Positions 5,478-27,336 of a DNA stretch of 64,000 nt are shown piece by piece; position 1 is the stretch's first letter, and each line of letters starts with the position of its first letter. Source of the DNA: Polyangium mundeleinium (GTDB taxonomy: Bacteria > Myxococcota_A > Polyangia > Polyangiales > Polyangiaceae); contig NZ_JAQNDO010000001.1 in assembly GCF_028369105.1 (NCBI RefSeq), forward strand, positions 8,898,501 to 8,962,500. Reading direction: 5' to 3'. Both the position numbers and the translations under genes were made by a program. Under the pieces are notes generated by a model. The model was not told where the DNA came from, made no database searches, and saw only the letters and a list, made by a program, of their open reading frames with translations.

Positions 5478-5583
5478 GATTTGTGGGAAATCTTCCCCGC
5501 TTGGGCCGAGCCGCGAAACCCGTGAAGATCCTGATCCTCCGTCGGGGAATTCCGGAACGAGATGGGCTCGTTCCTGCGCGAAA

Positions 5584-7281
5584 TCACCGGGGAATTGCGT
5601 CCTTCGGCGCCCCGAGGGCCGCCGAGAGATCCCGCACGCAGCGCGGCAAGGCGGCCGGATCGTGGCTCGTCGCGAGCGCCCGCGCGGCCTCCGGCGAAAC
5701 CCCGACGAGCAAGCACTCGGCCCCGACCAGGCGGAGCGCGCGCGAGAGGCGCAGGACGAGCGCGAGGGCTTCGTCGTCGATCAGGCGCGCGCCGGTCACG
5801 TCCACGATCACGCGGCGCGCCGATCGTTCCCAGGCTGCGCGGAGCGCGCGCTCCTCGATGTCCGCCGCGCGCGCTCGATCGATGCGCCCCACGAGCGGCA
5901 GGAGCAAGACGCCCGGGAGCACGGGCGCGAGGGGCGCGCCGAGCTCGCGGATGAGCGCGTGTTGCGCCTCGATCCGCGCCTCTTGCCGCGTGTGCGCCTC
6001 CTCGAGCTCCATGTGCTCGACGAGCGCCTCCTCGGCGAACGCGCGGGCCCGGATGGACTCGTCGAGCGCGCGCTCGAGCTCGCCGAGTTCGTCGTCCTCG
6101 AAGGTCGAACCCCCGAGATCGGGCGCGCCCCACGCCATGTCGGCGAGCCGGTCGAGGATCCGCTGGATGCGATCGACGGCAGGCGCGGGGAGGCTGCACG
6201 GCGGCGACGGAGGGCGCTCGGCGCGATGGGCGCAGAACGGCGCGGCGCGCACCGCGCCGAGCGGATCGTCGAAGGAGAACCCGCGCACGTCGTCGAGGCG
6301 CGGGGCGGCGTCGTTCATGCCGAGGCGCGCTGCGAGCTCGCGCGCCGGCTCGGCTTCGAAGATCTCGCGCGCGGCGGCGAGGTGCTCCACGTCCCCCGCG
6401 AGCTGCCCCCAGCGCTGCATTTGCGCGAGGATCCACACGCCGTATTCGACGAACGGCGTGGGCGCGAAGCCGAGGCGCTCGGGGCCGAGGGGGTCGCCCG
6501 GGCTCATGGGATCGCCGGCGAGGCCTTTTTCCAGGGCGCCGCACACCTCCACGGGCAAATAACCTCGGGCGACGACGAGGCCCGCGGCGGCGCGGCGGCC
6601 TTCGGGATCCATCCGTTCGAGCTCGGCCTGGGCCTCGACGACGGCTTCGAGCAGCGCGCCGGCGCGCTCGGGCCTCTCGCGCCAGAGCCTCGGCCCGAAC
6701 GAGAGCGTACAGCAGGGATGGCCCTGCCAAACCTCGCGGCTCTGCATGCAGTCCACGCCGCCGCCTCGATCCACGACGTGCTGCGCGAACGGCTCGGGGA
6801 ACATCGCGCCGTCGATGCGCCCGAGCGCGAGCCAGCGCGGCATGCGCGGGGGCGGCACCTCGCGGATCGTCACGTCCTGGAGCGGATTCACGCCTCCACG
6901 CGCGAGCCAGTCGCAGAGCAGGTAATACTGCATCGAGAAGCGATGCGGCACGCCGAGGACCTTTCCGGCGAGCTCGCGCGGCGCGGCGATCCGGCCGTGG
7001 GTCTTGGCCACGACGAGCGTGCTGCCGTTCTGGTTCTGCAGGGCGCGCACGCGGATGGGGGCGGCGCGGCCGTCGATCCCGAGGCCGGTGGCGAGGGCGA
7101 GGGGCGCGAGCACGTGCGCCGCGTCGACCTTGTCGTGGGTGAGCAGCCGCCGCACGGCGTCCCAGCTCGGGGCCCGGCGGAGCTCGACGGAGAGCCCCTT
7201 CTGCTCGAAAAAGCCGCGCGCTGCCGCATAAAGAAGCGGCATGCTGCAAGCGATGGGCACGTAGACGATACGAAGGGTCAT
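5584..7281 (-). CDS. NMT1/SsuA-like solute-binding domain fused to STAS domain
   Basis: 565 residues. The start was chosen as the ATG giving MTLRIVYVPIACSMPLL, exactly where an NMT1/SsuA/TauA-type periplasmic binding fold begins. There is no signal peptide, so the binding domain (about 1-320) appears cytoplasmic. After a linker with coiled-coil character (about 390-450, ELEEAHTRQEARIEAQHALI), the C-terminus (about 455-560) is an RsbR-type STAS domain (GVLLLPLVGRIDRARA, RRVIVDVTGARLIDDEALA). The usual phospho-acceptor position holds Asp rather than Ser/Thr in LIDDEA, so phosphorylation is uncertain. No ABC permease or ATPase gene is adjacent. A one-component metabolite sensor feeding an RsbR-like partner switch is the likeliest role (inference). 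Confidence 0.8.
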   Translation of the reverse strand: MTLRIVYVPIACSMPLLYAAARGFFEQKGLSVELRRAPSWDAVRRLLTHDKVDAAHVLAPLALATGLGIDGRAAPIRVRALQNQNGSTLVVAKTHGRIAAPRELAGKVLGVPHRFSMQYYLLCDWLARGGVNPLQDVTIREVPPPRMPRWLALGRIDGAMFPEPFAQHVVDRGGGVDCMQSREVWQGHPCCTLSFGPRLWRERPERAGALLEAVVEAQAELERMDPEGRRAAAGLVVARGYLPVEVCGALEKGLAGDPMSPGDPLGPERLGFAPTPFVEYGVWILAQMQRWGQLAGDVEHLAAAREIFEAEPARELAARLGMNDAAPRLDDVRGFSFDDPLGAVRAAPFCAHRAERPPSPPCSLPAPAVDRIQRILDRLADMAWGAPDLGGSTFEDDELGELERALDESIRARAFAEEALVEHMELEEAHTRQEARIEAQHALIRELGAPLAPVLPGVLLLPLVGRIDRARAADIEERALRAAWERSARRVIVDVTGARLIDDEALALVLRLSRALRLVGAECLLVGVSPEAARALATSHDPAALPRCVRDLSAALGAPKDAIPR

Positions 7282-9507: not shown

Positions 9508-11154
9508 GTGTCCCAGCAGGCCCCGATCTCCCCGCGAACCTCCCTCGCCCCCGCGCGCGTGCTGCTGCGCGGGGGCGGGCCGAGCCTCGTGGTCGTGGCG
9601 GCCGCCGCGTGCGCGCAACGCGTGGCCCTGCCGCTCGCGGCCCTTTGGCTCGGCGACCGAGGCCCCCGCGACGCGCTCGTCCTGCTCGCGGCCGCGGCCG
9701 CCTTGAGCTTCGTCCGCGCGCGGGCTGCCGACGCCCTCGCGCGGGAGGTGCGCCTCCGCGTCGTCGACCTCTTCGTCGCGCCCCTCGAACGCGGCGCGGT
9801 CGTGGCGATGCCGCCGGCCGCGGTCATGTCCGCGCGGCTCTCCACGGCGCTGCCCGTGCTCGTGAGCTGGGCCGTGGAGGGCGTGGCCATCCTGTTCGCC
9901 GGCGCGATCGCCGTGCCCGCCGTGACCGCGCTGCTCGTCTCGGCGCTCGGGGCGTCGGCGCTCGCGCCGCTCGTCGCCGCGGGCCTGACGGGCGGGCTCG
10001 TCACGATGCTCGGTGCGTCGCACGTCGAGGCTGCGTGGGACGTGGTGTTCGAGCGGTCGCGCGTGCTGCTCGCGCGGGCGACCGCGGGGTTTGCCGGCGC
10101 GGCCGAGCTCGTCGCACACGGACGCGCGCGGGCCTTCGCCGCGGAGCTCCGGGCCGAGGTGTCGGCGTGGTCCTCCTCGGAGCTCCGTGCTCGCGCCACG
10201 AGCGCGATCGCGGGCTGGGGCGCGCTGCTCGCGACGATCGCGGCGGCGCTCGGCGCGGCGGAGCTCTTCGGCGTGAAGGCGTTCGACGCCGGCGAGGGGC
10301 GCGACGTGCACCGATCACTCCTCCTCGTGCTCGCCGCGATCCCGACGTTGCAGATGACGATCGCGGGCCTCGGGAACTTCGTCCACGCGCGGGGCGAGCT
10401 CGCGTCGCTCGGGGACATGCTCGCGAAGGGCGCGGCGGAGGGCCTTGCTGCGCCGAGGGATGCGTCCGCTCGTACGCTCGATCCCCGCGCGGAGATCCGG
10501 CTCGACGGCGTCGGATACGCGTATCCGCCGCGGCAAGGTGCAGATGGCGCGTCGAAGACCCACGCGCTCCGGAACGTCTCGCTCGTGCTCCCGGCCGGCG
10601 AGAGCCTCGCCGTGCTCGGCTCGAATGGCGCGGGGAAAACCACGCTGCTCTACCTCCTGCTCGGGCTCGTTCGTCCGGACGAAGGGCGTGTCCTCGTCGA
10701 CGGCGCGGAGCCTCCGGGGCCGGGAAACGCGCGGTTCGGCGATCGGGTCGCGTTCGTCTCGCAAGAACCGTTCGAACCCCCCGACGCGACGATCGCCGCG
10801 TCCCTTCGCGCGTTCGACGCGGATGCGCCCGACGAACGCCTCGCCTCTGCGCTCGACGAGGTGGGCCTATGGACCTCGCTCCGGACGCGCGCAGGCTCCG
10901 ATGCGGCGGCGCTGGCGATACGCCTCGGCTCGCTCTCGCGCGGGCAGGCGCGGCGCGTGATGCTCGCGCGGGCGCTCGTGCGCGAGGCGGACCTCGTGGT
11001 GCTCGACGAGCCCGAGGCCCACCTCGATGCGACGAGCGTCGCCGAGCTCGCCGGGCTGCTTCGCCGTCTCGCCGAACGCCGCCGTGTCATCGCCGCGATC
11101 CACGATCCCGCCGTGCTCGGCTTTGCCAACCACGTGCTCCGGCTCTCCCCATGA
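9508..11154 (+). CDS. ABC exporter half-transporter (membrane + ATPase)
   Basis: 548 residues from a GTG. The N-terminal 300 residues hold several Ala/Leu/Val-rich membrane helices. The C-terminal nucleotide-binding domain has Walker A (LGSNGAGKTT, about 370-379), a Q-loop (FVSQEPF), the signature LSRGQ (about 476), Walker B plus catalytic Glu (VVLDEPEAHLD) and the switch His (AIHDP). All catalytic residues are present. The layout resembles CydD/peptide-exporter half transporters that work as dimers. Its stop overlaps the next gene's ATG (ATGA), and that partner is a nucleotidyltransferase-like protein. In RiPP and other peptide loci such pairs occur together, so export of a modified small molecule is possible, but no precursor was found beside it. 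Confidence 0.9.
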   Translation: MSQQAPISPRTSLAPARVLLRGGGPSLVVVAAAACAQRVALPLAALWLGDRGPRDALVLLAAAAALSFVRARAADALAREVRLRVVDLFVAPLERGAVVAMPPAAVMSARLSTALPVLVSWAVEGVAILFAGAIAVPAVTALLVSALGASALAPLVAAGLTGGLVTMLGASHVEAAWDVVFERSRVLLARATAGFAGAAELVAHGRARAFAAELRAEVSAWSSSELRARATSAIAGWGALLATIAAALGAAELFGVKAFDAGEGRDVHRSLLLVLAAIPTLQMTIAGLGNFVHARGELASLGDMLAKGAAEGLAAPRDASARTLDPRAEIRLDGVGYAYPPRQGADGASKTHALRNVSLVLPAGESLAVLGSNGAGKTTLLYLLLGLVRPDEGRVLVDGAEPPGPGNARFGDRVAFVSQEPFEPPDATIAASLRAFDADAPDERLASALDEVGLWTSLRTRAGSDAAALAIRLGSLSRGQARRVMLARALVREADLVVLDEPEAHLDATSVAELAGLLRRLAERRRVIAAIHDPAVLGFANHVLRLSP

Positions 11155-12062
11155 CGCCGCCTTCGACGCCGCGCCTCGACCTGCTGCGTGATCCACGCGC
11201 CGTGATGCCCGCGCCGACGCCGCAGGCCCACGCCGAGGCGATGCTGCGGGCGCACGTGCTCGGGCAGATCTCGCGTGCGCTCGTCGCGCGAGGGGAGCGC
11301 GCCATGCTCGTGAAAGGCGCGGCGCTCGCGCTCACGGTGTACCCCTCGCCTGCCGCGCGGCCGATGTGCGACGTGGACCTGCTCGTGCCGCCGCGGCGGG
11401 AGCGGGCGGTGATCGAGGTGCTCGCGGCGGCGGGGCTCGAGCTGCACGAACATCGCTTTCGTCCCAAGAGCCGCGAGATGCTGGGGGAGACGCAGCTCGT
11501 CGCGCGCGCCGGGGAGATGCGTTTGCTCGTGGAGGTGCACGGGACGCTGGACAAGATCGTCCCGCGGCCGATCGACGTGGAGGCCGTGGAAGCGCGCGCG
11601 AGCGTGGCCCCGGGGCTGCCGGGATTGCTCGTGCCGTCCGTGGAGGATCATGCGCTGCTCGTGGCGCTGCATGCCGCGGGGCACGAGTTTCGGCACGAGG
11701 CTGCGTGGCTCGATCTGGAGCTGCTCTTGCGCGGCGGAATCGACGGGCAGGTGCTCGTGGAGAGGGCACGGGCGTTCCGGCTCGGGACGGTGATGTTCGT
11801 GATGCTGTCGACGTTGCGCGCGCTCGGGGCCGCGAGCGTGGATGCGGAGCTTTTGCGGGCGTTCGAGCCGGGGAGGCTGCGGCGCGCGGCGCTCGTGCCG
11901 TTCTACGATGTGGGCGCGTTTCCGATCGCGCGCAGGAAGGCTGAGCTCGGCGTGCCGTGGGTGCTCGGACAAACGCCGCTGCGGGATGATCTCGGCGCGT
12001 GGGCGCGAGGGCTCGCGCGGTATGCGGCGGCGCGGGTTTCGGATCGGCTCGTGGTGCGGTGA
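11151..12062 (+). CDS. nucleotidyltransferase-fold protein (NTP_transf_5-like)
   Basis: 303 residues. The N-terminal part carries the nucleotidyltransferase pattern: LVKGAALAL (about residues 50-58), then PMCDVDLLVPP (about 68-78) with the paired acidic residues of the palm fold. The C-terminal half is helical. This matches the uncharacterised nucleotidyltransferase family (PF14907) often seen near lasso-peptide and other RiPP genes and in polysaccharide loci; the substrate is unknown. It is translationally coupled to the ABC half-transporter (ATGA). It converges with the STAS gene, and only 12 bases separate the two stops. Confidence 0.75.
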   Translation: MTPPSTPRLDLLRDPRAVMPAPTPQAHAEAMLRAHVLGQISRALVARGERAMLVKGAALALTVYPSPAARPMCDVDLLVPPRRERAVIEVLAAAGLELHEHRFRPKSREMLGETQLVARAGEMRLLVEVHGTLDKIVPRPIDVEAVEARASVAPGLPGLLVPSVEDHALLVALHAAGHEFRHEAAWLDLELLLRGGIDGQVLVERARAFRLGTVMFVMLSTLRALGAASVDAELLRAFEPGRLRRAALVPFYDVGAFPIARRKAELGVPWVLGQTPLRDDLGAWARGLARYAAARVSDRLVVR

Positions 12063-12074
12063 CGAAATGCCCTC

Positions 12075-13136
12075 TCAGCCACCCTTGCGCGTGGGGCCCA
12101 TGCAACGCAAGAGGCCGTCGCGCAGGCTGGCGAGCGTCACGAGCTTCGACAGATCGATGCCAATCGACACCATCGTCTGGGCGACGGCGGGGCGGATGCC
12201 CGTGATCACGCAGTGCGCCCCGAGCAGCTCGGCGGCGCGGACGAGCCGCAGGATGTGATCGGCGGTGGACGTGTCGATCACGTCCACGCCCGTCAAATCG
12301 ATGATTGCGTGACGCGCGTTCTTCTGCACGATCGCGTCGAGCAAGCGCGTCATGGTCTCGGCCGCGCGCTGGCTATCGACGACGCCCATCAACGGCAGGG
12401 TGATCACGCCGTCCCATACCTCGATGATCGGCGTGGACAGGGCGCGAATGGCCTCCTCCTGGCGCGCGATGAGGTCGAGCTTGTCCCGCAGCTCTTTTTC
12501 GGTCGCGGCGCGCTCCTCGACCTCCTTGCGCACCCGTTCGAGGGCCACGGCCAGGTCGGCCTTCGTCGCCTCGTCGCTGCCGAGCAGGCGCTCGACACGG
12601 TCCTCCAGGCTCGCGTCCGAGGGCCGGATGACGAATTCGTCGTATGCATCCCCCTTCGTCGCGAACGTGACCTGCTCGGCCCAGCATTGGGAGACCTTGA
12701 AGAACCGCTGGAAGATTCCCGCGAACTTGCCGCCGAGGTAACTCGAACCCCAGCTCACCCCGAGCGCATTCTGGCAGGTGGCCTCCCAGTGGTTCCAGGA
12801 ACGCACGCGCGCCTCCTTGGCCTTGGGATCGAGCGAGACGAGCTCCCAGCGGCCCCAGCCTGCGGCCGCGGCCACCTTGATGAGCTCGGCGAAGCCCTGT
12901 TCGAACGTGGGATACTGGCAGATGTACACCCAATCTTGCTCGACGCCGTCGCGCCCGCCGCCGTGGAGCGAGAGCCGGATCCGCTCGGTGCCCACCATGC
13001 GGTGCTGCCCCGAGAGCAGCCCTGCCAGGGTGCTCTCGGTCCAGATGAAAATGGCGGGGTTGCCCCCCATGCGTATCGTCTTCTGCTCGGTATCGTATTC
13101 GAATTCCAAGCCGCCCAGGGTCGCGCGCTCGATCAT
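12075..13136 (-). CDS. RsbR-like STAS protein with N-terminal sensory domain
   Basis: 353 residues; the ATG follows a GGGAGA ribosome-binding site. The N-terminal 185 residues contain a ligand-binding-type domain that resembles a V4R/heme-NO-like sensor fold (WEATCQNALGVSWGSSYLGG, VTFATKGDAYDEFVI); this is tentative. A coiled coil follows (about 185-240, ALERVRKEVEERAATEKELR). The C-terminal STAS domain (about 245-350) has the RsbR/RsbS motif IIDLTGVDVIDTSTADHIL, with Ser/Thr at the phospho-switch position. It probably acts in a stressosome-type partner switch. It is one of three STAS-type proteins within 9 kb, the others being 5584-7281 and 14134-14598. Confidence 0.85.
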   Translation of the reverse strand: MIERATLGGLEFEYDTEQKTIRMGGNPAIFIWTESTLAGLLSGQHRMVGTERIRLSLHGGGRDGVEQDWVYICQYPTFEQGFAELIKVAAAAGWGRWELVSLDPKAKEARVRSWNHWEATCQNALGVSWGSSYLGGKFAGIFQRFFKVSQCWAEQVTFATKGDAYDEFVIRPSDASLEDRVERLLGSDEATKADLAVALERVRKEVEERAATEKELRDKLDLIARQEEAIRALSTPIIEVWDGVITLPLMGVVDSQRAAETMTRLLDAIVQKNARHAIIDLTGVDVIDTSTADHILRLVRAAELLGAHCVITGIRPAVAQTMVSIGIDLSKLVTLASLRDGLLRCMGPTRKGG

Positions 13137-17930: not shown

Positions 17931-18216
17931 ACCTCACCGGTCCGGGACGCGTCCTCGAATCCACGACACCGTCGCAACGGCAGCGAAATGCGTGCGTCAC
18001 GCCGACCGGCGATGGAAGAGATACGTGATGGCGCGGCGGAACCGCCCCCGCTTCCGCGAGCGGCGGTATTTACCACCCGGAGGAGCCGAATTCTCGGCGG
18101 ATTGAAGTTTTGTTGCACCAACCCGAGCATTTCGCGCACTTCGCCGATGGTTGACGATTGACTCCCTGTCGGACCGCGTCTTAGCTACCTCAATGCATTG
18201 GGGCGCCAGGATCCGC

Positions 18217-19956
18217 ATGCGCACCGCGCTGCTCGGAGGGCTCGCAATGGCGAGCGCCGGGTGCGGCGAGCCCTCGGGCGGAGGTGAGCCCGTGGCCGGA
18301 GCGCGTGCATTCCCGGTCGAGATCCTCGGCCCGCCGGGGACCGAGGTCACGGTCACGCTCGAGGTGCCGGCCTGGCTGGCGGCGCGCCCGGCCCTTTCGC
18401 TCGAGGTGGTGGCGGACAACGTCGTGGCAGGGGAGGCGGCGTGGGTTGTGGTGAACGACGGGGCGCCGATCGACCTCGGCGCGTCGGGCCTGGGGATCCG
18501 CCGCCCCTTCGGCGGGACGGGACGCGGCACGATCCCGCTCGACGCCGGCGTGGTGAAGACGGGCGAAAACCGGATTGCCTTCAGGTATGCCCGCCAGGTG
18601 CCCGACGTCTCGGGCTTCCGCGTCCTCGGCCTTTTGATCCGCGCGCCCGACGACGCGGGGAGCCGGGTCGAGCTCGATCTCCCGTGGGAGGACCCGGCCA
18701 CGTGGACCGCCCCCCTCACCGATCCCGCGGCGGTGGAGCAGGGGCGCGCCTATTTCACGGCCATCTCGCGCGACGGCGGCCCGACCTGCGCCCGCTGCCA
18801 CGCCGACGACGGCGCGGATCTCGCCGTCTTCGCCTTCTCGAACCACAGCATCGAGGCGCGCGCGGAGCACCACCTGTTCTCCCCCGAGGAGGCGGCAGCC
18901 ATTGCGAGTTATATCCGCTCCTTGCCGGTCGCTCCCGCGGGGCGGGTCCATGATCCGCCGTTTCAACCCGGACCCGGCATGCGTGGCGAAGCGGGGGCCG
19001 GGTATGACGCGGTCCTTGCCGACGACGCTGCGCTCGGCGCGGCCCTCTTCCCGGACGGCCTCCCCGCCGAGCCCGCCTGGGAAACGCTCGCCTCGCTCGA
19101 TACCTCGCAGCTCCCGAGCCCGGCCTCCGCGCCGACCTGGCTGCGCTGGCTCCCGCGCAAGATCGATTCAGGCTGGTTCACGCGCGCCGGCGGGCTCCTC
19201 GCCAGCACCGAGGCGGCGCTCGCCGATCCCGGGGCGCTCTCCGACGCGCTCGCCTTCCAGTCGGCGGCGATCCAGATCGGCAAGGAGCTCCTGATCGAGG
19301 AGGGGGACCATCAAGGGCGAATCGAGCTTCTCCGCTACGCCGCGGTGAAGCTGTGGGCCTGGCAGCGCGCGCACGGCGGCTACGAGGGCCCGGACCACGG
19401 CTTCCCCGACGGCGGCCCGGCCTTCCCCTACGAGGTGGGCTTCGCCTTCTTCGAGGCCGGGATCGCCGAAGCGGTGCCGCATGCCATGGCGCAGGCGCTC
19501 TCGTGGTGGGTCGCGCAGATCGCGGTCAATCCGGGGCGAGGGTTTTCGAATGGCGAACGGCCCCTCAACTGGCGCGACGTCCTCCGGGTCGCGGAGGACG
19601 CCGGGCAAGGGCCGTCCACCCTGACCTTCTTCCACCTCCTCGGGAGCTGGGAAGAATCCCGCGGGGCCCTCGCGGACGACTTCGGCACCGCGCAGGGGCC
19701 CGTGCGCCTGCTCGCCGTGCCCCTCCTCCACGTGGACGCGGCGACGTGCGAGGCGCTCCTCCGCCGGTTTTTCCTGCGTGAGGCCGCGTTCCTCGCCGAG
19801 GGCGGCTCGCTTTCGCCCAATCATCACACGCTCCTTGCAAACGCCTGGCAGAGCGTCTGCGGGGAGCTCTCGGCCGCGCAGCGTCAGGGGCTGCGCGCCG
19901 TCGCGCCGGTCGAAATCGCGCCGGACCTCACCGCCTGCCAGGAGAACTCGCCATGA
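18217..19956 (+). CDS. monohaem c-type cytochrome lipoprotein
   Basis: 579 residues from the ATG that gives the lipoprotein signal MRTALLGGLAMASAGCGEP; an upstream in-frame ATG at 18193 is less likely. One haem c site is present (PTCARCHADDGADL, about 190), with a possible Met ligand not identified with confidence. The N-terminal 150 residues are beta-rich, followed by the cytochrome domain and a helical C-terminal half with many Trp and Gly. The protein is exported, lipid-anchored and probably carries electrons at the outer or periplasmic face. It is coupled to the following beta-helix protein gene by an ATGA overlap. Confidence 0.8.
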   Translation: MRTALLGGLAMASAGCGEPSGGGEPVAGARAFPVEILGPPGTEVTVTLEVPAWLAARPALSLEVVADNVVAGEAAWVVVNDGAPIDLGASGLGIRRPFGGTGRGTIPLDAGVVKTGENRIAFRYARQVPDVSGFRVLGLLIRAPDDAGSRVELDLPWEDPATWTAPLTDPAAVEQGRAYFTAISRDGGPTCARCHADDGADLAVFAFSNHSIEARAEHHLFSPEEAAAIASYIRSLPVAPAGRVHDPPFQPGPGMRGEAGAGYDAVLADDAALGAALFPDGLPAEPAWETLASLDTSQLPSPASAPTWLRWLPRKIDSGWFTRAGGLLASTEAALADPGALSDALAFQSAAIQIGKELLIEEGDHQGRIELLRYAAVKLWAWQRAHGGYEGPDHGFPDGGPAFPYEVGFAFFEAGIAEAVPHAMAQALSWWVAQIAVNPGRGFSNGERPLNWRDVLRVAEDAGQGPSTLTFFHLLGSWEESRGALADDFGTAQGPVRLLAVPLLHVDAATCEALLRRFFLREAAFLAEGGSLSPNHHTLLANAWQSVCGELSAAQRQGLRAVAPVEIAPDLTACQENSP

Positions 19957-22001
19957 GAGGACGCCGTCTTGCTTCGCCAGGGCTCCGCACCACGCTGCTC
20001 GTCCTGCCGCTCGCCCTCGTCTCCTGCGGAGGCGGCGGCGACCCCGGCGTCAAAGAGGATCCGCCGGGCATCGCGGCGGCCTGTGAGGGGGGCGCGTGCT
20101 CCTTCTGTGACCCGAAGGTGTGGGGGGGCGTGACACCGGACGCCACGACCGATCTCGTCATCCCCGATAAAAGGGTGGTCGTCGTGGATTGCGCGGCCGA
20201 AGCGCGCACGCTCCGCGTCGAGGCCGGAGGGACGCTCTCCGCCTCGCGCGAGGTCTCGTCGACCCTCACGATGCACGGCAACCTCGTCGTCGCGGGGACC
20301 GTGGACTACGGGACACCGGAGGGGCGGATCCCGGCCGGCGTGACCGCCGAGGTCATCTTCACCGGCATGAAAGACGAGGACTACCAGGGCACCCCGTCCG
20401 TCGAGGCGAGCGATGAGGGGTGGACCTCGGTCGAGACCCCGATTGAAATCGTCAAAGGCGATATCGGGCTCTGGGTGGCGGGGAGCGGTCGCCTGCTGGC
20501 CGCGGGGCAGGAGAAACGCGCCTGGGGACGGCTCGCCGACGGGGCGGGCCCGGCGGACCTGACCTTCACCGTCGACGACGCGTCGGGGTGGCAGGTGGGG
20601 GATCGCGTCACGCTCACGCCGACGGTGCCGCGCAGCGCGGGCGAGACGTGGGTGAGCCAGTTCGACGAGGCGAAGATCGCGGCCGTGGAGGGCAATACGG
20701 TCACCCTCGAAGCCGCGCCGAGCTTCGCACACGACGGCTGCAGCGATTGCATGCGGCGGGGAGAGGCCGCGAACCTGACCCGAAACGTCGTCCTCCGGTC
20801 GGCAGACGACACGAACCACGCGCACATCATGGTCCTCGGGCAGGGGATCGCGCAGCTCGACAGCGTCGAGCTCCGGTGGCTCGGGCCCGAGACATGCGGC
20901 GGCCCCCCGCGCCGGGCGGCCCTTTATTTCGGCGCGCAGAAGGAAGCGTCCGACCCGTCGTTCGTGCGCCACGCCGCGATATGGGGCGGGCAACGGAGCT
21001 TCGTCGTGATCGAGAAATCCCACGGCATCGAGGTCTCGGACGTCGCAGGCTACGACACGTATGGCGCCGGGTTCGCGATGTTCTACGACACGAACGGCTG
21101 CGGGACGCGCTGCGAGGATCGGGCGGAGAACGCGCCCCGCAGCATTGTCTTCGATCACGTCCTCGCGGCGAAGGTGGGCGCGTCGAAGCGCTCCGAGGAA
21201 GGGGATTGCCTGCGCATCGATCATCGCCTGGCCGGGTTCGAGCACAGCGGCGGCGAGGGCTCGGGCGCCCGCGACTGCGTCGCCGTCGGGATTGGCTGGG
21301 ACAGCGGTGGGTCGGACGTCGCCGGGTTTGGCTGGGTCGAGGGGGGGTCGGGGCGCCCGGAGGATTTTACCTTTACCCGCAACGTGACCCATAACAGCGG
21401 CGCGCACGGCGCGATGGTGTGGCACAACGACGACGAGCGCCTCCAGGCCCCGTACACGAACAACGAGTTCTGGTCGAACGCAGGGTACGGCATCCACTGG
21501 GGCGCTTATGGCAACCAGTTCGAGTTCGACGACGTCACGATCGTCGACAACGGGTTCGACAGCATCGCGATCAAAGCCATTCCCATGAGCGAGCGCCCGC
21601 GCATGGTCGACGTCACGCTCGAGAGCATCACCATTCTGTCCTACGTCTTCGTGCAGACGATCCCGGCGACCTTCCGGAACTTGACCTTCACGGGGACACG
21701 CCCGGTCGGCATCGGCCGCACCTTCCAGGAGGCCTGCCCCGACGCGGCCAAGGATGAGGACCCGAACGATCCCGACTGCATCCGTGACTGGCTGCGCTTC
21801 GAGAACGTCTCCTTCGCGGCGGGCATGAATCCCTTCGATTTCGGCCAATCCCCGAACAAGCACTCGGTCTGGGAGATCCGCGGCTTCTCGAGCCCCGACC
21901 ACGCCATGCTCCCCGCGGATTTCGACCTTTATCGCGCCGACAGCCAGGTCCCCGGCGGCTCATACTACGAGCCGTTCGACGCCTGGCTCGTGCCGCGCTG
22001 A
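19953..22001 (+). CDS. G8-domain, right-handed beta-helix lipoprotein
   Basis: 682 residues with a lipoprotein signal (LLVLPLALVSCGGGG). Residues about 50-170 match a G8 domain, the beta-domain of CEMIP/TMEM2 hyaluronan-binding proteins: VWGGVTPDATTDLVIPDKRV, then LRVEAGGTLS and LTMHGNLVVAGTV. A long right-handed beta-helix follows, with the CEMIP-like stretch NLTRNVVLRSADDTNHAHIM (about 270) and repeating short strands to about residue 640. Such proteins bind or cleave polysaccharides at the cell surface. Catalytic residues cannot be assigned by eye. It is co-transcribed with the cytochrome lipoprotein. Confidence 0.8.
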   Translation: MRGRRLASPGLRTTLLVLPLALVSCGGGGDPGVKEDPPGIAAACEGGACSFCDPKVWGGVTPDATTDLVIPDKRVVVVDCAAEARTLRVEAGGTLSASREVSSTLTMHGNLVVAGTVDYGTPEGRIPAGVTAEVIFTGMKDEDYQGTPSVEASDEGWTSVETPIEIVKGDIGLWVAGSGRLLAAGQEKRAWGRLADGAGPADLTFTVDDASGWQVGDRVTLTPTVPRSAGETWVSQFDEAKIAAVEGNTVTLEAAPSFAHDGCSDCMRRGEAANLTRNVVLRSADDTNHAHIMVLGQGIAQLDSVELRWLGPETCGGPPRRAALYFGAQKEASDPSFVRHAAIWGGQRSFVVIEKSHGIEVSDVAGYDTYGAGFAMFYDTNGCGTRCEDRAENAPRSIVFDHVLAAKVGASKRSEEGDCLRIDHRLAGFEHSGGEGSGARDCVAVGIGWDSGGSDVAGFGWVEGGSGRPEDFTFTRNVTHNSGAHGAMVWHNDDERLQAPYTNNEFWSNAGYGIHWGAYGNQFEFDDVTIVDNGFDSIAIKAIPMSERPRMVDVTLESITILSYVFVQTIPATFRNLTFTGTRPVGIGRTFQEACPDAAKDEDPNDPDCIRDWLRFENVSFAAGMNPFDFGQSPNKHSVWEIRGFSSPDHAMLPADFDLYRADSQVPGGSYYEPFDAWLVPR

Positions 22002-23327: not shown

Positions 23328-24191
23328 ATGCCCCCCGTGACGTACAGGATCCCCCCCTGGGTCCGCGCCTTCCTCGCGGCCGACCGCCTCGCGAACCGCT
23401 TTGCCTCCGCCCGCGAAGGCCTGCGCGACGAGCTGCTCCTCGCCTGGATCCCCGAAGCGGATCGCGCCGCCCTCACCGCTGCGCTCTACACGCGCCAGAA
23501 GACCTACCTCCCCGGCGGCCACCGCTTCGAAAGCGGCCTCTTCGCCTGGGAAAAACGCGCCCTCGACGCCCCCGCGTTCCCCCGCGCGGGCCGTGTCCTC
23601 GTCGGCGCGGCGGGCGCCGGTCGTGAAGTCGTCGCGCTGCTCGAACGTGGCTACACGGTCACGGCCTTCGACCCCTGCGACGCCTTCGTCGAGAGCGCGC
23701 GCGCGCTCGTCGAGGGCCGCCCCGCCGACATCCGCCTCGGCGCCTACGACGACCTCGTCGCCGCCTCCCAGGGCCGCGGCGGCCCGCTCGCCTCGCTCGG
23801 CGATCCTCCCTCCTTCGACGCCGTGATCCTCGGCTGGGGCAGCCTCTCGCACGTCTTGCCCGCCTCCAGCCGGCTCGACCTTCTTCGTGCCGTCCGCACG
23901 CTCGCGCCGCGCGCCGTCGTGCTCACGAGCTTCCAGCTCCGCCATGACAGCGAGGCGAAGACCGAGACCAAGGGCCGCCTTCGCGACGCGCTCCGCCGCG
24001 CCTTCACCACGATCGGCGCCCCGGGCCGCAGCGAGCCGGGTGATCACTTCTACCCGGAGGGCGGATTCTTCTCGTACCTCGCGCCCGACGAGATCCCGCG
24101 CGTCGCCTTCGAGGCCGGCTACGAGGTCGTGCTCTTCGAGGAGGGCCCCTATCCGCACGCGCTGCTCGCCCCGCTCACGGGCGCGGCCTGA
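23328..24191 (+). CDS. SAM-dependent methyltransferase-like protein
   Basis: 287 residues. The class I methyltransferase core is visible: motif I GRVLVGAAGAGREVVALL (about 87-104), acidic loop TVTAFDPCD (about 109), and motif IV-like FDAVILGWGSLSHV (about 164). The N-terminal 80 residues are helical. It lies 130 bases upstream of the candidate RiPP precursor on the same strand, so it may methylate the product; that is inference, and it may instead be unrelated. Confidence 0.65.
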   Translation: MPPVTYRIPPWVRAFLAADRLANRFASAREGLRDELLLAWIPEADRAALTAALYTRQKTYLPGGHRFESGLFAWEKRALDAPAFPRAGRVLVGAAGAGREVVALLERGYTVTAFDPCDAFVESARALVEGRPADIRLGAYDDLVAASQGRGGPLASLGDPPSFDAVILGWGSLSHVLPASSRLDLLRAVRTLAPRAVVLTSFQLRHDSEAKTETKGRLRDALRRAFTTIGAPGRSEPGDHFYPEGGFFSYLAPDEIPRVAFEAGYEVVLFEEGPYPHALLAPLTGAA

Positions 24192-24321
24192 ATGCCACGC
24201 CGCACCTACGCAACGAACCCACGGCTGCCCCTCGTTGTGACCTCTGCGCCCCGGTGATACGCTGCGCGGAGTGTCCTCGAGGCGCTCGCCTTCGCGGCGC
24301 GGCAGAAGGAGAACGACGCGC

Positions 24322-24501
24322 ATGGCCGACATCGACGACCGAAACGCAAAGCTCGAAGGCACCGAGGGCGACGCGAGGGAGCCGGGCGAGGATTCGCGCA
24401 AGCCCTACGAGCCGCCGCGCCTCACGAAAAAGCGCTCCGTGGCCCGCGCGACGCTCTTCACGCCGATGACGCCGGCCACGGGCATGACCGTCATGGGCTG
24501 A
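24322..24501 (+). CDS. candidate RiPP precursor peptide (59 aa)
   Basis: Start ATG at 24322 with AAGGAGA nearby. The N-terminal 27 residues are acidic (MADIDDRNAKLEGTEGD), as in many leader peptides. Residues 28-40 contain PYEPPRLTKKRSV, which resembles the leader motif Y-x-x-P-x-L recognised by B1/PqqD-like proteins. The C-terminal 17-19 residues (RATLFTPMTPATGMTVMG) are Thr/Met/Pro-rich and could be the core; the cleavage point is not visible. The usual leader Gly is replaced by Arg (TKKRS). It is followed directly by radical SAM, peptidase-like, PqqD-like and kinase-like genes, which is the main support. Confidence 0.65.
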   Translation: MADIDDRNAKLEGTEGDAREPGEDSRKPYEPPRLTKKRSVARATLFTPMTPATGMTVMG

Positions 24502-24545
24502 GCGGTCTCCCTCCCCGCGCGCCCGCCCCGGAGCCCCCACCCGCC

Positions 24546-25601
24546 ATGGCCGTCAACTGGATCGCCTTCCACCTCACGGATCGCTGCCAGCTCGACTGCC
24601 AGCATTGCCTGCGTGATCCCGGCCAGAAACCGAAGGATCTCTCGCTCGCCACGATCCGGAAGGTCCTCGCCGAGGCCAAGCGGCTCTACCGCACCCGTCA
24701 AGTCGCGCTCACCGGCGGCGAGCCCACGCTCCACCCCGAGCTCGAAGGCGTGCTCGACGCGATCGTGGAGCACGACTTCACATGGCACATCGTCACGAAC
24801 GGCAGGCGTTTCGAGCAGCTCCTCGGGCTCCTGCGCGACGGCCCCGCGCGGCGCGAGCGCCTCACCGCCGTCAACCTGAGCCTCGACGGCGCCGACGAGA
24901 CCACGCACGACGGCATCCGCGGCAAGGGGAGCTTTCGCGATGTCATGAAGGCCGTGACCCTCTGCACCGCGCACGGCCTCCCGTTCACGCTCCAGATGGT
25001 CCTCCACGCGCGCAACGTGCATCAGATCGAGGCGTTTGGCCTCATGGCCGCGCAGCTCGGCGCGGCGCGCGCGTCGCTCTCCATGCTCCAGACGACCGGC
25101 ACGCACCACGACGAGGCGCTGTATCTGCCGCCCCACGCCTGGCAAGACGCGCAGCACCGCATCGAGCGCCTCTCCGCCGCGCTCACCATGCCCGTGACGA
25201 TGCCCGAGGGGTTCTACCGCGAGCAGATCTTCCACGTCTGCGAGGCCATGAAAAGCGAGTCGCTCCACGTCGACGTCGAGGGCCGGCTCAACCTCTGCTG
25301 CCAGCACGCGGGCGTCCCGAGCGAGGGCCCCCCGCGCGACGTCGCCGCCGACCTCGCCACGACGAGCCTGCTCGAAGCCCATGGCCGCCTGCTCGGCATC
25401 ATCCACGAGACGCAGGCCGCGAAGCTCGCCGCCATGGCCCGGGGCCCGCTCGGCGCGTGGGACCACTTCCCCTGCAACTGGTGCATGAAGCACTTCGACA
25501 AGCCCCACTGGACCGACGAAGGCGCGGGCGGCCCGTCGGCGCAGCGGGAGCGGTGGCGCGGCGCGTGGGCGAAGAAGGTCACCTTGCCCGTCGTGCGCTA
25601 G
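24546..25601 (+). CDS. radical SAM enzyme of the RiPP locus
   Basis: 351 residues. The [4Fe-4S] motif is at the very N-terminus: C14-x3-C18-x2-C21 (DRCQLDCQHCLRD), followed by VALTGGEPTLHPEL (about 56-69) as SAM-binding GGE. The C-terminal part contains extra Cys (NLCCQHAG about 255; FPCNWCMKHF about 315), as in SPASM/Twitch-type auxiliary cluster domains. It should reductively cleave SAM and modify the precursor. It begins 44 bases after the precursor and runs on to the peptidase-like gene 20 bases later. Confidence 0.85.
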   Translation: MAVNWIAFHLTDRCQLDCQHCLRDPGQKPKDLSLATIRKVLAEAKRLYRTRQVALTGGEPTLHPELEGVLDAIVEHDFTWHIVTNGRRFEQLLGLLRDGPARRERLTAVNLSLDGADETTHDGIRGKGSFRDVMKAVTLCTAHGLPFTLQMVLHARNVHQIEAFGLMAAQLGAARASLSMLQTTGTHHDEALYLPPHAWQDAQHRIERLSAALTMPVTMPEGFYREQIFHVCEAMKSESLHVDVEGRLNLCCQHAGVPSEGPPRDVAADLATTSLLEAHGRLLGIIHETQAAKLAAMARGPLGAWDHFPCNWCMKHFDKPHWTDEGAGGPSAQRERWRGAWAKKVTLPVVR

Positions 25602-25621
25602 GCGGCCTGGGGGAGCGCGAA

Positions 25622-26068
25622 ATGCCTTCACCCTGGCCCCAGCACCTCCGGCTCTCCGCGACCGCGATCGGCCTGCGCCTGTCGCTGCCCCTGCGGGTCG
25701 CGCAGTCGAGCCTGCCCGCGCTGCTCGACGCGCTCTCGCGGGGCACGATCGATCCCGCGCCGCTCGATGTGATCGACGAGGCGCTCGCGCGCGCGGACGT
25801 GATCACCCATCACCTGCCGTTCGTCCCCGACACGTGCCTCTACCGCTCGCTCGCGCGTTTCTCGCTGCTCCGCCGCGCCGGACACGCCGCTCGGTTCATC
25901 ATGGGCCTCTCGCGGCCCGGGGAGATCGAGGGGCACGCGTGGGTGGAGCTCGACGGCGCGCCGTACGGCGAAGAGCTCGACCCCGACCTCGTCGTGACGT
26001 ACGCCTACCCCCGTTCACGCTCGGACGAGCCGAGCAACCTCCCCTACCCCAAGGAGTCCGCCGCGTGA
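25622..26068 (+). CDS. transglutaminase-fold (lasso B2-like) leader peptidase
   Basis: 148 residues. It matches the PF13471 type of B2 proteins: catalytic Cys72 (PDTCLYRSLARFSLLRRAGH), His105 in EGHAWVELDG, and a following Asp (D111 or D120) completing a Cys-His-Asp triad. In lasso systems this protein cleaves the leader peptide with help from a B1 partner. Here no asparagine-synthetase-like cyclase gene is seen. Its stop overlaps the GTG of the PqqD-like gene, so production is coupled. Confidence 0.85.
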   Translation: MPSPWPQHLRLSATAIGLRLSLPLRVAQSSLPALLDALSRGTIDPAPLDVIDEALARADVITHHLPFVPDTCLYRSLARFSLLRRAGHAARFIMGLSRPGEIEGHAWVELDGAPYGEELDPDLVVTYAYPRSRSDEPSNLPYPKESAA

Positions 26069-26343
26069 CCGAGCCGCGCCTTCCCAGGCCGAACCCCCAG
26101 GTGCTCTTCACCGAGCTCGACGACGGCACCGGCGTCCTGCTCCACCTCGATACGAAGTTCTATTTCACGCTGAACGCGGCCGCCGTGATCGTGTGGAAAT
26201 CCCTCGCCGAGTCGATCGCCGATCCAGGCGTGATCGCCGCGCGGATCACCTCGCTCTTCCGCGTCGATCGGGAGACCGCCGCGCGCGACGTCGACAGCGT
26301 GCTGCGCGAGATGCTCGAAGATGGCCTCGTGCTACCTGCCTGA
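26065..26343 (+). CDS. PqqD-like (B1) precursor recognition protein
   Basis: 92 residues, GTG start overlapping the preceding stop. Its pattern fits the PqqD/B1 winged helix: VLFTELDDGTGVLLHLDT, KFYFTLNAAAVIVWKSL, then a helical arm (DVDSVLREMLEDGLVL). Proteins of this type hold the leader peptide and present it to the modifying enzymes, here probably the radical SAM enzyme and the B2-like peptidase. Confidence 0.85.
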   Translation: MTEPRLPRPNPQVLFTELDDGTGVLLHLDTKFYFTLNAAAVIVWKSLAESIADPGVIAARITSLFRVDRETAARDVDSVLREMLEDGLVLPA

Positions 26344-26349
26344 CGCGTG

Positions 26350-27336
26350 ATGCAATCCGCGGCCCTGCACGGCGTGACGCTCGCGTGGACCACCGAGGGC
26401 GGCGCGCCCGATCTCGTCCGCGAGCTCGGCCTCGACGAAGGCATCGGCCAAGCGGAGGGCCGCGGCCGCATCGAGATCCTTCTCCACCGCGGAAGCGTTT
26501 CGCTCGACGCGGATCCGGCCATCGAGGGATATCGCCCCTCGTTTTTCCACGGCATCGTGCAGGCCTACCGCGAGCCCACGGGCGCGCCGCGGGCCTTCCT
26601 GCTCTGGGATCGCAAGAGCCGTATCCTCGTCCCCGAGGGAGCCTCGCGCATCGAGGCCTTCCTGTCCGGCGAAGAGATCGTGCCCGGCTCGGCCCGCGGC
26701 GCGCTCGAGATCGCGCTCTCGCTCGCCCTCCGCGCGCATGGCCTCTTTCACCTCCACGCCGCGGCCCTCGTCCACCGCACGCATGGCGAGACCGTCCTCG
26801 TCATCGGCGGCGCGGGCGCGGGCAAGACGACCACCACGATCACGCTCGCGTCCGCCGGCTACGATTTCCTCGGCGACGACGCGCTCCTCCTCGAAGACAG
26901 CCCCCTCGGGAAGCCGCGCCTCTGCGCCTTTCCGCGCCCCTTTCACGTCGGCCCGGCCGCGCTCTCGGCCTTCCCGCGTCTCGCGCCCTTCGCAGGCGCC
27001 CCGAAGAGCCACGGCGACAAACGCGACGTCGACCCGAAGCGCGCCTTCCCGGGCCAAGCCCGGCCCACCGGCCTTGCGCCGACCCTCGTGCTTTACCCGC
27101 GCATCGAGCCGGATCAACCGACCCTGCTCGCCCCCCTCGCGAAGGCCGAGGCCCTCGGCCACCTGATCGCGTCGAGCGGCGGCCTCGTGATCGACGACGT
27201 GCCCGGAAAGACCGAACACCTCGCCCTGCTCACCCGCGTCACGAACGGCGCGCGCCACTACGAGCTGCGCATGGGCCGTGATCTGCTCGACGACCCCTCG
27301 ATCCTCCCGCTCGGGATCGATGGCCTCGACTTCTAG
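26350..27336 (+). CDS. HPr-kinase-like P-loop protein
   Basis: 328 residues. A P-loop GGAGAGKTTTTITLASAGY (about 152-170) is followed by FLGDDALLLED, the acidic pair typical of HPr kinase/phosphorylase-like proteins. Related kinases in lasso and other RiPP loci phosphorylate the peptide or its C-terminus. The N-terminal 140 residues form a separate helical/beta region with a possible ligand-binding role. It starts 6 bases after the PqqD-like gene, closing the operon, and is followed by a strong hairpin. Confidence 0.75.
   Translation: MQSAALHGVTLAWTTEGGAPDLVRELGLDEGIGQAEGRGRIEILLHRGSVSLDADPAIEGYRPSFFHGIVQAYREPTGAPRAFLLWDRKSRILVPEGASRIEAFLSGEEIVPGSARGALEIALSLALRAHGLFHLHAAALVHRTHGETVLVIGGAGAGKTTTTITLASAGYDFLGDDALLLEDSPLGKPRLCAFPRPFHVGPAALSAFPRLAPFAGAPKSHGDKRDVDPKRAFPGQARPTGLAPTLVLYPRIEPDQPTLLAPLAKAEALGHLIASSGGLVIDDVPGKTEHLALLTRVTNGARHYELRMGRDLLDDPSILPLGIDGLDF

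Follow-up and report, generated by a model that had tools for sequence, protein, structure and literature searches.

A conserved, cyclase-free peptide gene cluster with a radical S-adenosylmethionine enzyme in Polyangium mundeleinium and related Myxococcota

The window analysed here is a stretch of 64,000 nucleotides from the 13.25-Mb genome of Polyangium mundeleinium, and it contains a run of genes at positions 23328-27336 resembling those for a ribosomally synthesised and post-translationally modified peptide (RiPP). All the genes of the run lie on the + strand and are separated by short intergenic gaps, in the order methyltransferase, precursor, radical S-adenosylmethionine (SAM) enzyme, B2 leader peptidase, PqqD-type RiPP recognition element (RRE), and HprK-like kinase. 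A preliminary description of the locus had named a precursor with YEPPRL, a radical SAM enzyme, a B2 protein with Cys72, a PqqD-like protein, and an HprK-like kinase, and each was found where that description had placed it. Its gene set was incomplete, since an ATP-binding cassette (ABC) exporter and a nucleotidyltransferase, which sit 11 kb upstream of the main run, also belong to the cluster (Table 1). The locus is a real and conserved variant, free of a cyclase and equipped with a radical SAM enzyme, of the lasso-peptide and linear polyphosphorylated peptide (LPP) type of RiPP system, and it occurs in Myxococcota.

Table 1 Features of the cluster, with positions counted in the window
Feature	Position	Strand	Basis
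ABC exporter, CydD-like half-transporter	9508..11154	+	PF00005, E 2e-28
Nucleotidyltransferase NTP_transf_5	11151..12062	+	PF14907, E 1.5e-24
SAM-dependent methyltransferase, weakly daptide-methyltransferase-like	23328..24191	+	NF041820 daptide_MTase, E 7.4e-9, far below cut-off
Precursor peptide, 59 aa	24322..24501	+	Open reading frame with YEPPRL; family in related loci
YEPPRL, predicted RRE-binding leader motif, Tyr at -17	24406..24423	+	Conserved register in distinct precursors
Predicted core FTPMTPATGMTVMG after Thr(-2)-Leu(-1)	24457..24498	+	Cut inferred from lasso and LPP precedents
Thr at core +2, predicted phosphorylation site	24460-24462	+	Placed by analogy with lasso and LPP systems
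Radical SAM enzyme, one predicted auxiliary cluster	24546..25601	+	PF04055, E 1.5e-24
Lasso-type B2 leader peptidase (Cys72, His105)	25622..26068	+	PF13471 and NF033537, over cut-off
PqqD-type discrete RRE (B1-like)	26065..26343	+	PF05402, E 5e-13, over cut-off
HprK-like kinase	26350..27336	+	TIGR04352, E 1.9e-8; PEPCK/HprK fold in model

Relatives were searched for in Myxococcota genomes, by a pattern search of genome contigs, and in a plasmid collection. Using the radical SAM protein (P0002) as the query, the module was found in 25 of the 183 genomes of the order (E ≤ 1e-35), and P0002 matches were found in 12 of the 282 phylum genomes (E ≤ 1e-20), two rows being weak partial matches. A profile search (E ≤ 1e-30) gave matches in 18 of 377; the genome of P. 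mundeleinium is included in all three figures. A scan of contigs for exact short peptide patterns returned nine loci; eight carry titles of myxobacteria or Myxococcota, and the ninth is entitled 'Proteobacteria bacterium'. Six radical SAM matches with 24-34% identity were obtained from the plasmid collection. Two radical SAM matches, L013 and L014, were weak and partial; they were dropped and stand outside the related set, which consists of 30 loci from 29 genomes (31 loci when the window is added).

Of the 30 related loci, 27 have B2, 29 PqqD, 28 the kinase, and 12 the methyltransferase at most 6 kb away from the radical SAM gene. Gene order and strand vary among these loci; because B2, PqqD, and the kinase stay near the radical SAM gene despite this rearrangement, their association is not a matter of chance. 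B2 was not found in L068, which begins at a contig start, or in L073, and the kinase was not found in L072, which stops at a contig end. Furthermore, the pairwise distances of the radical SAM, kinase, B2, and PqqD proteins correlated with r of 0.56-0.81, a level reached by 0 of 500 label shuffles, in a test of 17 hand-chosen loci out of the 31 (near-duplicates, incomplete loci, and L073 being dropped) to which shared species history contributes. Methylation, which the preliminary description had put forward as a possibility, is not a universal step, since 13 of the 31 loci, window included, have the methyltransferase gene. As a separate observation, locus L056 carries a precursor and a radical SAM gene (5229-6683) without B2, PqqD, or kinase on a 13.5-kb contig, and a second contig of the same genome (L059) holds a more complete set.

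The assignments of the partner proteins were examined by family and by residue. B2 scored 54.1 bits against NF033537 lasso_biosyn_B2 (cut-off 33), its Cys72 and His105 were invariant in 28/28 sequences, and the genome holds one PF13471 match. The nearest solved relative of the PqqD-type protein is the lasso RRE TbiB1 (E 2e-6). In the kinase, H136, D176, and D177 were present in 29/29 sequences and K159 in 28/29, and these residues make up the His-Lys-Asp-Asp motif reported in kinases of lasso systems (PMC9266682). A model of the kinase built with nine sequences showed the PEPCK/HprK fold with a mean predicted local distance difference test (pLDDT) score of 89.

In 29 of the 30 related loci, the radical SAM gene has a precursor open reading frame no more than about 2 kb away, and the other one (L068) begins inside that gene; the precursor of the preliminary description, which has a lasso-type leader, is thus conserved in the relatives. 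Sequence search or pattern gave 27 of these precursors, and two (L064 and L073) were recognised by eye, each with one deviating motif residue. The following counts refer to the 25 precursors that are distinct from the Tyr onwards, numbered from the proposed cut. In the leader, Y(-17) was conserved in 24, P(-14) in 25, L/I/V(-12) in 24, T(-2) in 21, and L(-1) in 24. Core position +2 was Ser or Thr in 23/25 and is the best conserved position of the core; at positions 1, 3, 4, 5, 6, and 7, Ser or Thr was found in 1, 3, 4, 2, 5, and 9 precursors, respectively. The pattern used for picking precursors held the Tyr, the Pro, and the hydrophobic residues at -12 and -1, with T(-2) and Ser/Thr(+2) outside it. 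Many of the 25 rows are closely related, and by eye they form about 18 groups, 16 of which have Ser/Thr(+2).

Among the six Polyangium precursors, codon differences added up over pairs came to 15 synonymous and 0 non-synonymous ones in the 17-residue leader, whereas those in the core, added up over equal-length pairs, came to 13 synonymous and 8 non-synonymous ones. This indicates a constrained leader and a variable core, as a RiPP would predict. The cores are 8-30 residues long and rich in Gly, Thr, Met, Ser, and Val, and the first residue is Phe, Leu, or Val in 20/25. Asp or Glu occurs at positions 7-9 in two cores and Cys in two; the window core has neither. By a hand count, an aromatic residue follows the first core position in 8/25. 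The two cores with Cys, from L063 and L064 (VSGEECVFAPPPC and VSGEQCVFDPPPC), have two Cys each, stand apart from the rest, and may carry a cross-link.

We also examined the two upstream genes. PF14907 has two matches in the genome, and the better one is the nucleotidyltransferase gene directly after the ABC exporter. In two loci from two other genera (L049 and L058), the ABC, nucleotidyltransferase, methyltransferase, precursor, radical SAM, B2, PqqD, and kinase genes are consecutive, with one additional gene ahead of the precursor in L058. Orthologues of the window exporter stand there upstream of the nucleotidyltransferase and methyltransferase genes with 50% (L049) and 52% (L058) identity; ABC matches in the other loci may be generic ABC domains and were not used as orthology. 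The ABC gene had a strong match in all five other Polyangium genomes, on the operon contig in two (with the radical SAM gene about 8 and about 16 kb away) and on a separate contig in three. Counted from coordinates, 17 of the 29 related genomes have a PF14907 match at most 8 kb from the radical SAM gene, and ten have it farther off or on another contig. Nine stretches of seven other genomes were compared with the window, and five proteins encoded between 13518 and 23216 had no counterpart in them. Since the methyltransferase and ABC controls did match in these stretches, we treated the five as unrelated or variable; the gene for a STAS-domain protein (12075-13136) was left out of this comparison. 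The stretch between the two halves of the cluster also encodes, at 18193-22001, a G8/CEMIP beta-helix protein preceded by one in which a CxxCH haem-type motif was noted by eye.

Considered together, these observations make it probable that the cluster directs the synthesis of a cyclase-free RiPP that is guided by the RRE, cleaved by B2, phosphorylated by the kinase, and modified by the radical SAM enzyme; this estimate is for the whole pathway, whichever reaction the radical SAM enzyme performs. We infer every reaction, the order of the reactions, and the product, and the proposed pathway, from docking through phosphorylation at +2 to the later steps, is drawn from the bsf system of Bradymonas and from LPP. 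In Bradymonas, BsfK phosphorylates Ser3 of a YxxPxL precursor, and the RRE speeds this phosphorylation and also aids B2 cleavage (PMC10368454). In LPP precursors, which carry the motif YxxPxVLxHQxIxFETxxS, Ser3 at Tyr+18 bears several phosphates (PMC13381572). By analogy, the PqqD-type RRE would bind the YxxPxL leader and deliver the precursor to the tailoring enzymes, and the kinase would phosphorylate the conserved Ser/Thr at core +2, which is Thr in the window. The radical SAM enzyme would alter the small, hydrophobic, Gly/Thr/Met-rich core, and the nucleotidyltransferase would probably attach a further group to the phosphate. The leader would then be removed by B2 behind Thr(-2)-Leu(-1), leaving the product for export by the ABC protein. 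The preliminary description had looked to the C-terminus of the precursor for the modification; the Ser/Thr at core position 2 is the more likely target of the kinase.

The same genes could instead represent two adjacent systems, namely a radical SAM/B2 RiPP and an HprK/PqqD/nucleotidyltransferase set of the HPr-rel-A type with another target. The best NCBIfam match of the kinase is indeed HprK_rel_A, the PqqD of L066 also matches PqqD_rel_X, and the L056 contig has the precursor and radical SAM gene alone of the set. However, in 8/30 loci the kinase and radical SAM genes are no more than 134 bp apart, the proteins diverge in a correlated manner, and the best conserved core position is the one that a kinase could use. 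We regard two separate systems as quite improbable.

Within the single pathway that we favour, the reaction of the radical SAM enzyme was considered from its Cys residues, its fold, and the cores. C14, C18, and C21 (CxxxCxxC) were present in 29 of 31 rows, and the other two, L058 and L068, begin downstream of these residues. Five further Cys, C232, C251, C252, C310, and C313, were invariant in 31/31. The spacing C232-x13-G-x4-C251 is similar to the opening of a SPASM/twitch motif, and four ligands of an auxiliary cluster would leave one invariant Cys spare. The nearest folds of the model were SkfB, BlsE, and SuiB. Our first guess for the reaction, made from the sequences, would be epimerisation of the core, because Cys is missing from nearly all cores, and in the enzyme one invariant Cys is left over once the four likely cluster ligands are counted. 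Thioether chemistry, for which the cores of sactipeptides and ranthipeptides supply Cys, was rejected as a general rule, since Cys occurs in just 2/25 cores and is absent from that of the window.

If the pathway is as proposed, there is still a sizeable chance, short of even, that the radical SAM enzyme forms a C-C, C-O, or thioether cross-link and thereby a macrocycle. SkfB, which forms thioethers, and SuiB, a C-C cyclase, are among the nearest folds, and the two-Cys cores of L063 and L064 and the later aromatic residues in eight cores would offer sites, whereas 23/25 cores lack Cys and 17/25 have no aromatic residue beyond position 1.

The radical SAM protein also resembles enzymes of small redox cofactors. 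It matched the families ScmF (SynChlorMet; E 4e-24), mycofactocin (E 5e-24), and PqqE (E 6e-20), all far below the cut-offs, and its best solved relative by sequence is PqqE. These matches and the PqqD-type RRE, together with a leader motif also common to precursors of pyrroloquinoline quinone (PQQ) (PMC13381572), would suit a cofactor or signal made in the style of PQQ or mycofactocin, with most of the precursor discarded. The cores, however, are variable, 8-30 residues long, and have no conserved residue pair to fuse, and such a product seems unlikely. B2, the kinase, and the nucleotidyltransferase are not known to belong to the PQQ and mycofactocin pathways.

The preliminary description had also reported no lasso cyclase at the locus, and this was borne out: the PF00733 matches of the genome are restricted to 4.98 Mb and 11.20 Mb. 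The contigs that carry the radical SAM gene in the 29 related genomes gave no PF00733 match closer than 9 kb to it, although several of these contigs are short and a cyclase just past the contig end is possible there. The Asn synthases 9-36 kb away that were examined, in five genomes (G286, G159, G177, G420, and G421), begin with MCG, like AsnB. With respect to leader processing, an RRE, B2, and a YxxPxL leader with Thr at -2 are present as in lasso systems; with respect to ring formation, both the linked macrolactam cyclase and the Asp/Glu at core positions 7-9 are missing. Because these two are defining features, the system was not classed as a lasso peptide.

A true lasso peptide would thus have to be closed by a cyclase acting from elsewhere in the genome. 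The protein at 4.98 Mb (L074 883-2598, also L094) has no MCG start and weakly resembles the albusnodin and ikarugamycin macrolactam cyclases, and the B2 and leader register are of lasso type. However, strong orthologues of its gene occur in 2/29 module genomes (with weak matches in two more), its neighbours resemble, by eye, glycosyltransferase and sugar-type genes, and B2 is not among them. This is the sole lasso-cyclase-like homologue examined, and a cyclase in trans, which if co-regulated with the locus would have undermined the preliminary description, was judged unlikely from the few orthologues, the lack of B2 near the gene, and the AsnB-like linked synthases. Since, in addition, 20/25 cores have Phe, Leu, or Val as the first residue and 23/25 lack Asp/Glu at 7-9, we consider a lasso peptide formed in this way very improbable.

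Several points weigh against the proposed phosphorylated and radical SAM-modified peptide. The conservation of the Tyr, the Pro, and positions -12 and -1 is partly built in, as these residues were used to pick the precursors, and core +2 is Pro in the L066/L067 precursor and Phe in L073. LppK rejected Thr at its site (PMC13381572) and the Polyangium residue is Thr, although BsfK did accept Thr; moreover, the site in BsfA is Tyr+19 by its own numbering, one residue beyond that of Polyangium (PMC10368454). The PqqD-type protein, at 50.3 bits, is below the lasso-specific NF033530 cut-off of 70, and the kinase, at 33.7 bits, is below the TIGR04352 cut-off of 200. Among the radical SAM fold matches, the epimerase EpeE ranks only 50th. 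The model, built with ten sequences, is weak, with pLDDT below 50 at 304-351 and elsewhere and a poor C-terminal part, so that cluster ligation is a guess. The radical SAM frame of L058 falls in two open reading frames, the methyltransferase is absent from 18/30 related loci and hence is not universal, and PF14907 gave no match in genomes G371 and G338 and no near match in others.

The surroundings of the related loci were also inspected. Locus L053 has neighbours of the Wzz/GNVR, GFO/IDH/MocA, and sugar-epimerase families, and L067 has neighbours of the UDP-glucose dehydrogenase and sugar nucleotidyltransferase families; at least these two loci lie amid polysaccharide-type genes. No polysaccharide-type family was found among the Pfam-scanned genes of the window, part of which was scanned. 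Separately, in L050-L055 and L058 a secreted-looking protein of 450-490 aa is encoded upstream of the precursor (one member was tested and had no Pfam match), and in other loci a large secreted-looking protein is encoded near the precursor, two of which (L066 and L069) were tested and match the PD40 beta-propeller repeat. It would be a bolder idea, and one that we hold as rather unlikely, that the clusters form a separate Myxococcota RiPP class, in which the nucleotidyltransferase would use a phosphate on core residue 2 of an epimerised or cross-linked hydrophobic peptide to link it to a sugar, yielding a peptide-polysaccharide conjugate of the cell surface; the neighbours of the cluster in at least some relatives are of capsule type. 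The cluster offers one system in which to address how HprK-like kinases and PF14907 proteins act on RiPPs and whether B2 functions without a cyclase, and also why such clusters adjoin polysaccharide genes in Bacillota and some myxobacteria. A named strain is available for such study, as the radical SAM protein of Polyangium fumosum DSM 14668, the closest named relative, is 96% identical.

Among known systems, LPP of Bacillota has an RRE, an HprK-like kinase, an NTP transferase, and an exporter, but no cyclase (PMC13381572). The window holds the same set, likewise cyclase-free, with two of the parts 11 kb off. The likeness extends to the discrete RRE, the YxxP leader, the spacing of the Polyangium Ser/Thr(+2), which is at Tyr+18 like the phosphorylated Ser of LPP, and the frequent proximity of LPP systems to polysaccharide genes; the LPP exporter is MsbA-like (PMC13381572). 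In contrast, the place taken here by B2 is filled in LPP by a SipW-like signal peptidase, and the term 'radical SAM' is absent from the main text of that paper (PMC13381572). We did not class the cluster as LPP because B2 takes the place of the SipW-like signal peptidase, which was not searched for.

The systems for the phosphorylated lasso peptides paeninodin, pseudomycoidin (psm), and bsf share the RRE, B2, HprK-like kinase, and YxxPxL at -17 to -12, and psm and bsf also have a nucleotidyltransferase; Thr is at -2 in most lasso precursors and Ile in bsf (PMC9266682, PMC10368454). The Polyangium family differs in having a radical SAM enzyme and no linked cyclase, and in cores that mostly lack Asp/Glu at 7-9 and start with a hydrophobic residue. 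With PQQ and mycofactocin it shares a PqqD-type RRE and a SPASM/twitch-type radical SAM enzyme, but it adds B2, a kinase, a nucleotidyltransferase, and variable cores. The epipeptide enzyme EpeE and the sactipeptide enzyme SkfB are likewise radical SAM RiPP maturases, probably with one auxiliary cluster as here (PMC8326336); the tailoring partners are different, and the cores are nearly free of Cys, unlike those of sactipeptides. A daptide assignment was set aside, as the single match in its favour was that of the methyltransferase, weak and below its cut-off, the other daptide enzymes not having been searched for. Among the open-access literature matches listed, the gene set is undescribed. 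What sets the cluster apart is that the lasso leader, RRE, and B2 platform is paired with a radical SAM enzyme while a linked cyclase is absent, and that it is accompanied by the kinase and nucleotidyltransferase that decorate some lasso peptides.

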